Source: an uncultured Bacteroidales bacterium
GTDB taxonomy: Bacteria > Bacteroidota > Bacteroidia > Bacteroidales > Muribaculaceae
Reading direction: 5' to 3'
Assembly (NCBI GenBank): GCA_902777835.1
Contig: CACYVC010000005.1
Span: forward strand, 1 to 64,000
Length of the DNA: 64,000 nt
Both the position numbers and the translations under genes were made by a program. Below, in pieces: positions 5,608-43,705 of the stretch (position 1 is the stretch's first letter; each line of letters starts with the position of its first letter). The notes below the pieces were generated by a model. It had not been told where the DNA came from, made no database searches, and saw nothing but the letters and a program-made list of their open reading frames with translations.

Positions 5608-6548
5608 AGCTTAACTTTAAACACTTGATACACTATGCCTCTCCCCCCCATGCGGCACTTTTGGCGCACTAGACCTTCGTTGAGATACAGACCACCGTTC
5701 TCGGTAGAGATACCAAAGTCGAAATAGCGATAGCCAGCCTGTGACGATTTCTTGATAAGATTATCGAAGAGCAACGTCAGAGCCTTGAGTTCACGCCCAT
5801 GCTCGGTTGAGGCTATGTACTGGCAGTGAGCAACCTCGTTGCCACAATAGTACATCACTACACCAGCCAGTATCTCATCGCCTAGCATTGCGGTGTATAG
5901 TTTTATGTTCTCAGGGAAACGAGAGTGAAGAAGCAATATCTCGTCAAGCGAATGAACTGGATGTCTGTCATACTTCTCCATCAATAATGCATCGAGCACA
6001 TCCCAGTAACCCTGCCAGTCACCTGACTCCTTTACTTCTACCCCACTCTTAAGAGCCAAATTAACATTACGCTTGTTGCCACGGTCAAAAGGCAGTGGTT
6101 CATCAAGGTCTATAGTTGTAGAAATGTTGCTCTCGGCAAGCACTCCACCAGCTCTAAAGATGGTGTAAAGGTCTTCCTCGCAGGGATAGCGATGATAGAT
6201 GTGAGGCACTGGCTTATAGACAATCTCCTCAATGCCCTCATCTTGGAGAAACTGCACCGAGGCCTCCCACACCTCCATCATAGTGGTGGCATCAAAATGG
6301 CGCAGAGGCACCAACCAACTGCCGTAGGTAAGTCCGCGGTGACTATATAGCGTGTTGCCCTTGCGACAAGCAGGAAGAACGGCAACAATATTTTCGCCAT
6401 CACGCGCAACCAGCGAAAAATCGACAAAACGGTCGCTATGATAGTCCATATAGTCGCGCAAGTGCAGGAACGTGCCATTACGTGAGTTTCTCACAGCATC
6501 ATCCCATTCATGCTTACTCTGAGCAGTGTATTTCTCAATTGTAATCAT
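5604..6548 (-). CDS. FemAB/GNAT-like acyltransferase-fold protein
   Basis: 314 residues. The opening (MITIEKYTAQSKHEWDDAVR then NGTFLHLRDYMDYHSDRF) and the later segments PACRKGNTLYSHRGLTYGSW and GYRYFDFGISTENGG are typical of the FemAB-related, GNAT-fold family, which transfers aminoacyl or acyl groups to cell-wall or glycan precursors. The specific acceptor is unknown. It has no signal peptide, so it is cytoplasmic. It lies two bases after the DUF4292 lipoprotein gene and just before the flippase, which suggests it modifies an envelope glycan before export; this is inference from context only. Confidence 0.7.
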   Translation of the reverse strand: MITIEKYTAQSKHEWDDAVRNSRNGTFLHLRDYMDYHSDRFVDFSLVARDGENIVAVLPACRKGNTLYSHRGLTYGSWLVPLRHFDATTMMEVWEASVQFLQDEGIEEIVYKPVPHIYHRYPCEEDLYTIFRAGGVLAESNISTTIDLDEPLPFDRGNKRNVNLALKSGVEVKESGDWQGYWDVLDALLMEKYDRHPVHSLDEILLLHSRFPENIKLYTAMLGDEILAGVVMYYCGNEVAHCQYIASTEHGRELKALTLLFDNLIKKSSQAGYRYFDFGISTENGGLYLNEGLVRQKCRMGGRGIVYQVFKVKL

Positions 6549-6550
6549 TA

Positions 6551-7381
6551 TCAGCTACCACCCAATAGTTTCATTATATCTTTGCCCTCAATGCGCTTGT
6601 AGTTCTTAGGAATATTGGTGTCGATGGTGAAACTTTCATTCCAATTGATGTCCTTGTATTCCATTTCAAGCTTCAGCGAATTGCCGTTGAGTTTTGTCGC
6701 AACATTGGCTTTGGTAGCCACTTTTCCTGCTACGCTGCCCTGCACCTTGCCGTAGGTCACACTATAGGTTGAAGCACCCGAGCTGCTTGGAATCACATTG
6801 AGCGACACGATGTTGTTGCGGCTGTCATAAACAAAATTATAGTCAAAACCATTGAACTGATTTTTAGGCGTCAATATCACCTTGTTGTCCTTCACCGAAA
6901 TCGTGAAATCATCTTTCAAGTCTTGTGTCAATGATCCTTTGCCAAGCTCGAATGCGCGACCTAAGAAGATGTCTTGCAAGGCGCCCACAGTAACTGGTAT
7001 GCCATTGGTGAGTAACGACGCTTTCTCAAGGATATAGCGCTTGTGCAGTTTATCAACAAGCAATATCGAGTCGCCATTAATCACCATCTTAGCGGCCTCA
7101 ATGCCCAGCACTGGCCGCACCGACACATAGATACTCTTATTCCTGATCATCTTCATCTGCATCGAAGAACTCAGGGACTTGCTACCAGAGCCTATCTCCA
7201 CATTGCCGCCACTCTTAAAGGTGCGCCAATCGGCCTGATAGAACGCCGACATGTCAACGTTTTCGTTAGTCACTGTCACTGGAACATTGTCATCATCGTT
7301 CTTAACAATTTTCTTTGAGCACGATGCTAATGCCACAATGGTGAACAACAATAATGCAATCTTAAATGAATATCTTTTCAT
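6551..7381 (-). CDS. DUF4292-type lipoprotein
   Basis: 276 residues from the preferred ATG at 7381, which opens the signal sequence MKRYSFKIALLLFTIVALAS with lipobox Cys next (LASC). A longer frame begins at 7417 but would put a basic stretch before the signal peptide and would overlap the TPR gene. The body, with SSSMQMKMIRNKSIYVSVRP and IEAAKMVINGDSILLVDKLHKR, matches the DUF4292 family, a LolA/LolB-like fold proposed to act in outer-membrane lipid or lipoprotein handling in Bacteroidota. It follows the TPR gene by seven bases. The dut, TPR, DUF4292 order is, as I recall, common in Bacteroidales. Confidence 0.8.
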   Translation of the reverse strand: MKRYSFKIALLLFTIVALASCSKKIVKNDDDNVPVTVTNENVDMSAFYQADWRTFKSGGNVEIGSGSKSLSSSMQMKMIRNKSIYVSVRPVLGIEAAKMVINGDSILLVDKLHKRYILEKASLLTNGIPVTVGALQDIFLGRAFELGKGSLTQDLKDDFTISVKDNKVILTPKNQFNGFDYNFVYDSRNNIVSLNVIPSSSGASTYSVTYGKVQGSVAGKVATKANVATKLNGNSLKLEMEYKDINWNESFTIDTNIPKNYKRIEGKDIMKLLGGS

Positions 7382-41567: not shown

Positions 41568-42128
41568 TCAATTGTTTACCATTACAGCTACACAATTCAC
41601 CAAGTCGCCAACAGTGTGCATCATATCAAATGTTTCGTCATAAATATTGATTCCAAACCTATCTTCAAGTTCCTGCTTGATTTGATTTCGCTGCTGCTGC
41701 GTGATTTTGAAATCCTCGTTAAGTCTTGAGGAGAGCTGAACGTTCATGGGGTCTATTTTAAGCGTATTTGCAACCACTTCCATCACATTACGTTCAATAG
41801 CAGCAAGGTTGTTTGGATTATCGGGCTTATTCATTCCCGGACGTGGTCTTGGACGTGGCCCATACATAAGATGAATGGGACGCTGACGCACGCCATACAT
41901 GGGTCGCACCACATTGCGACGGTCATCCTGCGGCAGCAAATCGGCAGAGTCAACTTCCTGACCATCTATCACCACCTTATCGGCGGCAGTGAGTTCCACA
42001 TCAGGTTTCTCACTTTGCACAGGCTTTGCCTCATTGCCAGCACATGCTGCAATAGCACCCGTTGTCACTCCTGCTGCAATCACAGCTCCGATAGCCGCCT
42101 TGCGACGATTTTTGTTATCTTTGTTCAT
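41568..42128 (-). CDS. Lipoprotein with two MYG motifs and an ACP-like C-domain, likely rSAM substrate
   Basis: 186 residues. A basic N-terminus and hydrophobic stretch lead to a lipobox (GAIAAC, Cys 29). Residues 70-100 are Arg/Pro-rich and contain MYG twice (77-79 and 88-90). Residues 108-186 align with acyl carrier protein: IERNVMEVVANTLKID, then LNEDFKITQQQ where ACP has the DSL phosphopantetheine site, then LEDRFGINIYDE and a TVGDLVNCV helix. The modified Ser is replaced by Gln, so it cannot carry the prosthetic group. It lies 11 bases after a radical SAM/SPASM gene. The rSAM/lipoprotein systems known from Bacteroidales have a YG-containing motif as I recall, so it may be the enzyme's substrate. 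Substrate status is inference. Confidence 0.7.
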   Translation of the reverse strand: MNKDNKNRRKAAIGAVIAAGVTTGAIAACAGNEAKPVQSEKPDVELTAADKVVIDGQEVDSADLLPQDDRRNVVRPMYGVRQRPIHLMYGPRPRPRPGMNKPDNPNNLAAIERNVMEVVANTLKIDPMNVQLSSRLNEDFKITQQQRNQIKQELEDRFGINIYDETFDMMHTVGDLVNCVAVMVNN

Positions 42129-42139
42129 AATATATAGTT

Positions 42140-43210
42140 TTATAATTTCACATTCTTCAATCTGTTGTAGTGGCAGACCATGAGGTCGCCGTTCTGGTCG
42201 CGGAGGTGGAAACCGTTTCCTTTACAGTAGCGGAACATATCGCACTCGGCACAGACACCTCGCTTCATCCACTCACGGTTGCGGTATTTCTCAAAGCGGT
42301 TGTTCCACACATCCCAAAAACTGTCGTGGTAGATATTGCCCTGATTGTAGTCGCTGCGAATGCTTAGGCATCCCGAAATAGCGCCATCGTGGCGGACACT
42401 TGCCACAGTTAGCCCTGCCTCACAGGAGTAGAAATAGTCACGCACCATTCCTTCGTAGGCCCCAAGGAATCCCTCACAAGCGAAGGACAGGTCAATCTTG
42501 CTCTCAAGGCGTGTCTTAACAATAAAGTTGAGCAGATCACGAAACTGATGGTCGGTAATTTGCAGTTCGTCAAGTCCCACAGCCCTACCCATTGGCACAA
42601 TGGTAAAGCATCGCCAATATTTAACCCCTGAGTTGATAAGCAGTTGTTTAATTTCGTCAAGGTGATTGATATTGCGAGAGTTGACGCAGGTTATCACGTC
42701 CCACTCAAGGTCTTCAACCTTACTCATCAATTTGATGGCACGCAATGCTCGGTCAAAGCTATGAGAATTATTTCTAAGCCAGTTGTGGTCGCTAGCAGTA
42801 CCATCTAGGTCAACTGCCATGCTGTCAATGCCCGCCTCAGCGAGAGCATCCATCATTTTCTCATCAAGAAGATAACCATTGGTAACCAGTCCCCACTGGA
42901 AACCTCGCTGCTTAATCTCACGTCCGCATGCCACAATGTCGTGGCGAACGAGCGGCTCGCCCCCTACCGTCGACACCATGATTGTCGCCGGGTCTTGATG
43001 CTGCGCAATCTCGTCAAGAACCGGCAATAAATCCTGCAGCGGCATCTCGGTAGCACTCAGGTCTTTGGCGCAGTCGCTGCCGCAATGCCTGCATGAGAGG
43101 TTACACCGCAACGTGCATTCCCAGAACAGTTGCTCCAAAGGATGCTCTCGGCACAGACGCTCATTCTCACGCCTTGCCACCTCGAGTGCCATTTGCTGCG
43201 TGTGGTCCAT
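42140..43210 (-). CDS. Radical SAM/SPASM enzyme, rSAM/lipoprotein type (TIGR04133-like)
   Basis: 356 residues. The radical SAM cluster motif CNLSCRHC lies near residue 33 in the context FWECTLRCNLSCRHCGSDC, with the GGEP motif (VGGEPLVR) and a TNGYLL strand. The C-terminal SPASM domain has the extra iron-sulfur cysteines (CEAG, GC, CAECDMFRYC and VCHYN). This opening is what I remember from TIGR04133 enzymes, which are paired with lipoproteins and are thought to modify them. It lies nine bases after a PepSY-like lipoprotein gene and 11 before the MYG lipoprotein, so the three genes form one operon. The chemistry is unknown. Confidence 0.88.
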   Translation of the reverse strand: MDHTQQMALEVARRENERLCREHPLEQLFWECTLRCNLSCRHCGSDCAKDLSATEMPLQDLLPVLDEIAQHQDPATIMVSTVGGEPLVRHDIVACGREIKQRGFQWGLVTNGYLLDEKMMDALAEAGIDSMAVDLDGTASDHNWLRNNSHSFDRALRAIKLMSKVEDLEWDVITCVNSRNINHLDEIKQLLINSGVKYWRCFTIVPMGRAVGLDELQITDHQFRDLLNFIVKTRLESKIDLSFACEGFLGAYEGMVRDYFYSCEAGLTVASVRHDGAISGCLSIRSDYNQGNIYHDSFWDVWNNRFEKYRNREWMKRGVCAECDMFRYCKGNGFHLRDQNGDLMVCHYNRLKNVKL

Positions 43211-43219
43211 TATATGATA

Positions 43220-43705
43220 TCAGTCGTCTGTTCCTGTCCTCTTGCAATTGACATCATAATTGATATCCATGCCGTTATCAAGTTTCACATCATAACCACC
43301 AAAGCTGTCTTTGTCGATTTCTACTATATTAGCTTCAGGATCTATTGATTTGACGTCATTCAATATTCTCTCATCAATTACTGACGCTGGAATTCCTGCA
43401 GGACATTCAATCTCCCTTATATAGCCATCCATGTCAAACTCCAATAATTCACCTGTCCTAAGCCACACTCTGATGTCATGATTGTCGGCAATTACTCTGA
43501 CAATCTCATAGCCAGGCAGATACTTATCCAGATATTTTATAGTTACTTCAGGGAGTTTATCTAAATTGGCAATACTATCGCCACCATGAACAGGAGCATT
43601 AATAACAGAAGTTTGCTCATTGCTTGGCACATCATTAACATGTTTGCACGACATAGCAAGAGTGACTAATGCTATCACCACAACTGCATTAAAAATGTTT
43701 CTCAT
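43220..43705 (-). CDS. PepSY-like lipoprotein (DUF2874 type)
   Basis: 161 residues from the ATG at 43705, where a lipoprotein signal starts (MRNIFNAVVVIALVTLAMSC); the longer frame from 43744 adds a non-signal stretch. The body contains two related halves with the pattern of Bacteroidota PepSY-like proteins: YEIVRVIADNHDIRVWLRTGELLEFDMDGYI and VEIDKDSFGGYDVKLDNGMDINYD. These are small periplasmic proteins of unknown role. It is the first gene of the radical SAM operon; whether it is a second substrate or a chaperone is open. Confidence 0.8.
   Translation of the reverse strand: MRNIFNAVVVIALVTLAMSCKHVNDVPSNEQTSVINAPVHGGDSIANLDKLPEVTIKYLDKYLPGYEIVRVIADNHDIRVWLRTGELLEFDMDGYIREIECPAGIPASVIDERILNDVKSIDPEANIVEIDKDSFGGYDVKLDNGMDINYDVNCKRTGTDD

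Follow-up and report, generated by a model that had tools for sequence, protein, structure and literature searches.

A TIGR04133 radical SAM enzyme and its exported X-Tyr-Gly partner in a Muribaculaceae genome: a predicted splicease pair

A 64,000-nucleotide stretch of DNA from an uncultured Bacteroidales bacterium of the family Muribaculaceae (assembly GCA_902777835.1, contig CACYVC010000005.1, positions 1 to 64,000; hereafter the window) encodes, side by side, a radical S-adenosylmethionine (SAM) enzyme with a SPASM domain that belongs to the family TIGR04133 and an exported lipoprotein with two Met-Tyr-Gly (MYG) sites. We propose, with a probability of roughly 0.6, that this enzyme is a splicease that would remove tyramine at X-Tyr-Gly (XYG) sites before export, so that the exported partner would display ketoamides; from sequence comparison, TIGR04133 enzymes in general are predicted to be spliceases acting on exported proteins. 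Two lines of evidence point to this reading. XYG is common to partner proteins of unrelated builds and is also the motif on which PlpXY acts, described as removing tyramine at XYG with MYG and LYG as natural sites (PMC10533398). The enzymes are, in addition, related to those of the families TIGR04103 and TIGR03913, and an XYG site lies beside a Nostoc TIGR04103 enzyme. An initial annotation of the locus had suggested that Tyr residues of an exported lipoprotein may be modified; the suggestion is sharpened in that tyramine would be excised from the backbone, as by PlpX, rather than the Tyr being decorated. The features of the pair are as follows.

42140..43210, minus strand: TIGR04133 radical SAM/SPASM enzyme, 356 aa, predicted splicease (profile, Pfam, alignment, AlphaFold2 model)
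41568..42128, minus strand: predicted substrate, a 186-aa exported lipoprotein carrying two MYG sites (open reading frame, linkage)
42042..42128, minus strand: signal sequence with lipobox IAA-C (Cys29) (read from the sequence)
41961..41990, minus strand: segment TAADKVVIDG (residues 47-56), candidate recognition element (four-row alignment)
41892..41900, minus strand: MYG site 1, M77-Y78-G79, then VRQRP (sequence; YG enrichment in partners)
41859..41867, minus strand: MYG site 2, M88-Y89-G90, then PRPRPRP (sequence; YG enrichment in partners)
41571..41816, minus strand: acyl carrier protein (ACP)-fold domain, residues ~105-186 (PF00550, AlphaFold2, Foldseek, clade C-termini)

The enzyme and its partner

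The resemblance to TIGR04133 recorded in the initial annotation turns out to be full membership, the enzyme matching the profile over its full length with 513 bits against a cut-off of 425. Pfam recognizes both the Radical_SAM (PF04055, 3.4e-22) and SPASM (PF13186, 7e-8) domains, and the radical SAM motif CX3CX2C corresponds to C36/C40/C43. Eleven cysteines are invariant in an alignment of 55 rows (the window enzyme and 54 of the 64 enzymes listed), including the radical SAM and SPASM cysteines C36, C40, C43, C263, C281, C320, C323, C329, and C346. The AlphaFold2 model (pLDDT 94) has a single helix (residues 3-22) ahead of the barrel strands, and its best matches among solved folds are anSME, SkfB, BlsE, SuiB, PqqE, and ChlB. 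The genome of the window also encodes a second TIGR04133 enzyme, 56% identical to the first (G000:C12:103866-104903; loci L002 and L121), with three tandem small lipoproteins ahead of it that carry the sites KYGPL, VYGPP/VYGPP, and VYGPP/VYGPP. A DNA pattern for Tyr-Gly-Pro-Pro matched this genome 13 times, including four times in the second TIGR04133 locus; its backward control matched more often, 21 times.

Both MYG sites of the lipoprotein sit in an Arg/Pro-rich stretch, downstream of a segment in which T47, A48, A49, V52, I54, D55, and G56 are invariant in the four-row partner alignment. The C-terminus matches the PP-binding profile PF00550 at 21.2 bits, barely above the cut-off of 20.8. 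In the AlphaFold model, built on an alignment of four sequences, pLDDT is 62 for the whole chain and confident (~90) only for residues ~108-185, whose predicted fold resembles solved ACPs (Foldseek TM-score up to 0.92 by target length). In an ungapped alignment by eye to the first partner of locus L085, the position of the phosphopantetheine-bearing Ser holds Gln144, and a working carrier protein was rejected because this attachment Ser is absent. As anticipated, the partner is of a different build from the TIGR04134 lipoproteins: it has no match to TIGR04134 at E<=1, and one partner of group A matches that family with 70 bits.

Linkage and the clade of the window

Among 225 genomes of the family to which the window belongs, 56 encode a TIGR04133 enzyme above the cut-off (47 of 198 species genomes sampled from its order do so). 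The lipoprotein has matches at E<=1e-3 in 42 of the 225, 29 of them in the same genus and 13 in another genus, the latter covering the ACP part only (residues ~97-181). In 27 of the 29 same-genus genomes the match adjoins an above-cut-off TIGR04133 gene on the same contig. Of the remaining two genomes, G205 has its match close to the start of a contig, and G172 has partner genes mid-contig with no enzyme. Thus the lipoprotein is not widespread without a radical SAM neighbour, which the initial annotation had named as the check on its proposal, and G172 is the one clear exception. Locus G172:C8 (L130) has two XYG partner genes and no TIGR04133 gene, either there or above the cut-off elsewhere in the genome; loss of the enzyme is possible.

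We defined the clade of the window as the 32 loci with an enzyme at least 63% identical, reduced to 30 since L143 and L146 duplicate the proteins of L083 and L110. Partners were selected by the pattern TAA[DEQ] near the N-terminus, which gave 45 proteins and, after removal of one that is another gene (the second of L105), 44. Every one of these 44 has at least one XYG. They share a layout consisting of a Lys/Arg-rich signal or anchor sequence, a TAADxVxIDG segment, an XYG stalk, and a C-terminal domain. This domain is TonB_C-like in 11 of the 44 (ten recognized by pattern and one by eye); in the others it is ACP-like or unclassified. The single TonB_C-like partner scanned matched Pfam TonB_C at 5.1e-23, and the single ACP-like partner scanned besides that of the window matched PP-binding at 1e-11. 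The Ser of the DS[LI] motif is kept in seven of the 44 (by eye). Two close relatives, loci L085 (~6080-7235) and L093, have two tandem ACP-like partners, of which the first keeps the DSL Ser and the second has lost it; the window has only the orthologue of the second. A lipobox was found by pattern in only seven of the 44, that of the window (IAA-C) among them; the term lipoprotein thus holds for the window partner and fails as a general rule, and it was rejected as the unit of the system given the 37 clade partners with no lipobox by pattern.

The XYG motif across the TIGR04133 family

The wider family was assembled from two sources. From 70 sequences, L129-L132 (no enzyme match, fetched for lipoprotein or ACP matches) and L064 and L128 (incomplete enzyme reading frame) were left out; of 80 loci from named genomes, found with an alignment of 17 enzymes, six were left out as having no full enzyme open reading frame (ORF). 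This yielded 138 usable enzymes in all, or 133 non-redundant ones after five were dropped at >=97% identity. Beside these 133 enzymes lie small proteins that are exported or sit in the membrane; their builds are unrelated, and they share X-Tyr-Gly, often as X-Y-G-x-P. Besides TIGR04134-type lipoproteins (MYGTP and similar sites), there are small lipoproteins carrying VYGPP, membrane proteins whose MYGGP is close to the C-terminus, and a few proteins that have VYGPPP and no hydrophobic N-terminus. In a further kind, very small lipoproteins, the lipobox Cys is itself X (CYGSP, CYGTP, CYGAP). These very small ones, of ~60-70 aa, occur at L180, L189, L190, L192, L198, and L210 (C-Y-G-S/T/A/P-..). 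The partner of L118, 23 bases past its enzyme, carries CEYGGP and, in addition, IYAPP and VYAGP, in which the Gly after Tyr is replaced; these may be either dead sites or a sign of relaxed specificity.

At 115 of the 133 loci, ORF chaining gives an exported or membrane protein that contains YG; like the other counts on partners, this one depends on the chaining, and some partners may be missed or misread. Under a strict motif (YG.P or YG[VP]R), which was picked after the sequences had been seen, 100 of the 133 loci have a match in a chained exported protein, against eight of 173 control anchors at the same loci. Among the 33 misses, 25 have an XYG partner nearby by eye, more than 1 kb off at L093, L109, and L175. 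Neighbours were also chosen regardless of YG (132 proteins from 114 of the 133 loci) and reduced at 40% identity to 78 representatives. In these, YG is seen 93 times, compared with 26.3+-5.2 in shuffled sequences (200 shuffles, maximum 41), and FG, WG, YA, YS, YP, and GY show no enrichment in the same 78. YG is found in 59 of these representatives, with Pro at +2 in 57. Tyr is followed by Gly in 93 of 353 cases in the representatives and in 105 of 1327 in 398 non-adjacent control ORFs.

Seven loci have no Bacteroidota in their record titles (L206, L214-L218, and L221); they are metagenome bins, whose taxon labels may be wrong. Four of them have an XYG partner, labelled Spirochaetaceae (L206), Campylobacteraceae (L216), Deltaproteobacteria (L217), and Myxococcales (L221). 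A plasmid copy in Treponema saccharophilum, which comes from an isolate, has a partner with CYGMP.

These data bear on whether the genes are ordinary neighbours, merely co-located and with YG sites by chance. The motif is short, a single YG is common (79 of the 398 control ORFs), and G172 has partner genes with no enzyme. Against this, the pair is kept in the 27 of 29 same-genus genomes, YG is enriched relative to both shuffles and control anchors, and XYG partners recur in loci labelled Spirochaetaceae, Treponema, Myxococcales, Deltaproteobacteria, and Campylobacteraceae, so that we consider a chance association very improbable.

Over 350 YGs, the identity of X is variable (V, M, K, E, R, Q, C, and L are commonest) and Pro stands at +2 after the Gly in 162, a pattern that fits a splice site at which X is kept. 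The conservation of MYG, on which the initial annotation relied, is thereby divided: the YG part is conserved and enriched in partners, and the Met at the X position is not fixed. XYG might alternatively be a recognition or sorting motif, with the enzyme changing another part of the partner. Such a role is thinkable for the small C-YG-P lipoproteins, which have the motif at the lipobox Cys. The motif is, however, found alike at the lipobox, in mid-chain stalks, and near the C-terminus, and also in partners with no hydrophobic N-terminus (L078, L101, and L102); no other feature was seen that is common to all partner builds, and the same XYG motif is reported to mark the PlpX splice sites (PMC10533398). 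This makes a pure recognition role quite improbable.

Kinship with TIGR04103 and TIGR03913

In phylogenetic trees, TIGR04133 joins the TIGR04103/TIGR03913 clade with support of 99/97, and does so at 98/95 in a second tree that leaves out PqqE, NirJ, and four TIGR04133 rows. Nine TIGR04103-like loci of the phylum were found outside the genome of the window; six of these were candidates for the trees, L133 yielding no protein. Two residues, G44 (in the HCGS that comes after CX3CX2C) and E253, are found in at least 19 of 20 TIGR04133 enzymes and in 4/4 of the TIGR04103/TIGR03913 type, against at most one of 12 other rows. TIGR04103 is also the second-best NCBIfam model by E-value for five of eight distant TIGR04133-type enzymes (L193, L206, L214, L216, and L221).

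A bona fide enzyme of TIGR04103, the family named nif11-class peptide radical SAM maturase 3, is encoded on a Nostoc plasmid (853 bits, cut-off 725) and aligns with the window enzyme over the full-length radical SAM and SPASM regions (26% identity, 124 bits). The Nif11 precursor that adjoins it ends in IALYGLPPELF, that is, X-Y-G-x-P; YG is absent from two further precursors nearby, one of the Nif11 type and one NHLP. Beside TIGR03913-type enzymes, YG is present in nine of 11 DUF1843 peptides and lies in the N-terminal third in six of the 11 (LYGGAM twice, PYGVAI twice, PYGPAM, and PYGAGI); the two with no YG have LYAAG and MYAAS at the same place. YG-bearing DUF1843 peptides were seen at the TIGR03913 (GDL-motif) loci L226, L227, L244, and L245, and judging from these peptides the GDL-motif system may be splicease-like too.

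Several observations weigh against a splicease assignment. On the motif side, no XYG partner was found by eye at eight of the 133 loci (L116, L150, L154, L178, L212, L214, L215, and L218), one of which, L214, has less than 600 bases of upstream sequence; these eight include three of the seven non-Bacteroidota loci (L214, L215, and L218). YG is absent from 19 of the 78 representatives, and the sites of the window, YGVR and YGPR, have no Pro at +2. On the enzyme side, the trees are unrooted and have neither AhbD nor NirJ2 among their rows, and enzymes of unassigned function, from f17 genomes and Agathobacter, fall within the joint clade as well. No clear XYG precursor was found among the plus-strand ORFs (the strand of the enzyme) at the f17 TIGR04103-like loci of the phylum, and none is named among the annotated neighbours of the Agathobacter enzyme, judged from annotations alone. 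For the window enzyme, which scores 116 bits against TIGR04103 (cut-off 725), that model ranks sixth after TIGR04133 itself, with AhbD, TIGR04053, NirJ2, TIGR03913, and NirJ ahead. Another model is second-best in three of the eight distant members (L215, L217, and L218); at 1e-35, the counts among 55 members are 29 for AhbD, 28 for TIGR04053, and 21 for TIGR04103. The Nostoc enzyme itself scores 154 bits with AhbD and 152 with TIGR04133. No separate PlpY-like protein with a RiPP recognition element (RRE; RiPP, ribosomally synthesized and post-translationally modified peptide) was noticed on reading the neighbours listed, nor any third conserved gene beside TIGR04133, no RRE profile search having been made. 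Finally, we take PlpX to be a TIGR04103 member by way of Nif11-type precursors and an InterPro correspondence. Nif11-type precursors are described for spliceotides (PMC8868522, PMC11002830).

The motif evidence tells where the enzyme acts and not what it does, and it could alter the Tyr or the preceding residue at XYG with no excision, through a C-C, C-O, or C-N cross-link or a dehydrogenation. Other SPASM maturases of RiPPs carry out such reactions, the best-matching solved folds listed above do other chemistry, and the frequent Pro at +2 could serve as a cross-link partner. Yet Pro is missing at +2 in 188 of the 350 YGs, those of the window included, X and the residues past the Gly vary widely, and the nearest relatives in the trees, TIGR04103 and TIGR03913, have precursors that often carry XYG. 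We regard modification with no excision as rather unlikely.

Predicted reaction and fate of the product

The data show the gene order, the family of the enzyme and its kinship, the linkage of the pair, and the motif that partners share. For the splicease reading that we favour, we infer the following chemistry, order of events, and use of the product. With SAM and its 4Fe-4S clusters, the enzyme would act at each X-Tyr-Gly of the neighbouring precursor, in the cytoplasm and prior to Sec export, while the stalk is still unfolded. The tyramine part of the Tyr would be excised and the backbone rejoined, Met-Tyr-Gly becoming alpha-keto-beta-homoMet followed by Gly, at two sites of -135.08 Da each. 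Because no RRE partner was noticed, recognition may occur via the signal sequence or the TAAD..IDG segment. After export, Cys29 would be lipidated and two reactive ketoamides would lie in the flexible Arg/Pro-rich stalk, between the anchor and the ACP-like head. A tethered protease trap is our first guess for their use, since protease inhibition is described for spliceotide products (PMC11117315, PMC10373908), and carbonyl cross-linking to amines our second.

For PlpXY, several splice sites per precursor are reported as possible (PMC10533398, PMC10373908, PMC11002830), an Affibody carrying the tag GGPIRPGYGLPI was spliced (PMC10533398), and a ten-residue tag is said to suffice in proteins with no leader, some tagged FtsZ variants not being accepted (PMC10533398, PMC10373908, PMC11002830).

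Gene order and neighbouring genes

As first described, three genes adjoin one another, all on the minus strand, in the order PepSY-like protein, enzyme, lipoprotein, with gaps of 9 and 11 bases. The first of them is the following.

43220..43705, minus strand: PepSY-like lipoprotein, 161 aa, accessory and not conserved with the pair (PF11396)

The PepSY-like protein matches PepSY_like PF11396 at E=3.7e-8. A PepSY-like gene lies upstream of only five of the 138 enzymes, all within the clade of the window, and the idea of a fixed three-gene operon was rejected on this ground. The PepSY-like gene is a local accessory and the core system is therefore the pair of enzyme and XYG protein. The single promoter claimed for the operon is not established either: a sigma-70 scan, which does not extend to Bacteroidota promoters, gave 7 sites where 5.6 would be expected by chance. 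Since the next gene begins 85 bases past the lipoprotein, the transcript may extend further. This downstream gene (window positions 41482-40133) has a CHU_C type IX secretion signal domain (PF13585), and similar CHU_C-type genes come after the partner in several close relatives (by eye).

Significance

TIGR04133 is a named family with no assigned function, and filing it among the spliceases would make an orphan enzyme directly testable. We found no paper naming TIGR04133 or TIGR04134, and a broader literature search gave no title or passage tying the family to splicing; this coverage did not include the full survey of Scott et al. 2022 (Chem 8:2659), cited in PMC10533398 for 939 predicted splicease systems, in which the assignment may already be in print. 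The available part of a study mining RiPPs of Bacteroidales does not mention 'lipoprotein', 'splice', or 'tyramine' (PMC10352776). A 2022 review states that natural spliceotides had not been isolated and that their role was entirely unknown (PMC8868522).

More broadly, and at slightly less than even odds, TIGR04133 may be a large splicease branch that edits the backbone of exported proteins, most of them anchored in the membrane, and does so even at the Cys that bears the lipid, with no dedicated RRE protein. Its products would be envelope proteins with swappable heads, studded with ketoamides and serving either as tethered traps that bind proteases covalently and reversibly or as carbonyl cross-linkers. 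If so, the range of backbone splicing would extend to exported proteins of gut and rumen bacteria, and the branch would reach loci labelled Spirochaetaceae, Myxococcales, Deltaproteobacteria, and Campylobacteraceae. Splicing at C-Y-G would change the lipidated Cys of the very small lipoproteins, X would set the P1-like residue of the ketoamide, the heads exchanged would be ACP-like, TonB_C, and CarboxypepD_reg, and the natural role of splicing would become a question that can be asked. Spliceases that perhaps work with no separate RRE partner would also matter for protein labelling.

Comparison with known systems

The closest named system is the pair of TIGR04133 and TIGR04134 (the NCBIfam 'radical SAM-associated putative lipoprotein'), of which the window enzyme is a TIGR04133 member. 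TIGR04134-type lipoproteins of related loci have MYGTP, CYGTP, EYGSP, and CYGMP sites, and, of three related-locus lipoproteins scanned against TIGR04134, one lies above the cut-off and two just below. A plasmid record of Parabacteroides distasonis carries a TIGR04133/TIGR04134 pair. Unlike the TIGR04134-type lipoproteins, the window partner combines a TAAD..IDG segment with an Arg/Pro stalk and an ACP-like head, and it is encoded downstream of the enzyme. With PlpXY the window shares XYG sites in the partner (two MYG) and a clade in the trees, whereas its predicted substrate is an exported, membrane-anchored protein with no match to a Nif11 or nitrile-hydratase leader in Pfam and NCBIfam scans, and its enzyme lies below the TIGR04103 cut-off. 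The GDL-motif system (TIGR03913 with DUF1843 peptides) belongs to the same wider clade and has YG in nine of the 11 peptides read, although these are short and have no signal sequence, in contrast with the window partner. Finally, the C-terminal domain of this partner shares the fold of acyl carrier proteins (PF00550), from which it differs in the absence of the attachment Ser and in its position on an exported protein.

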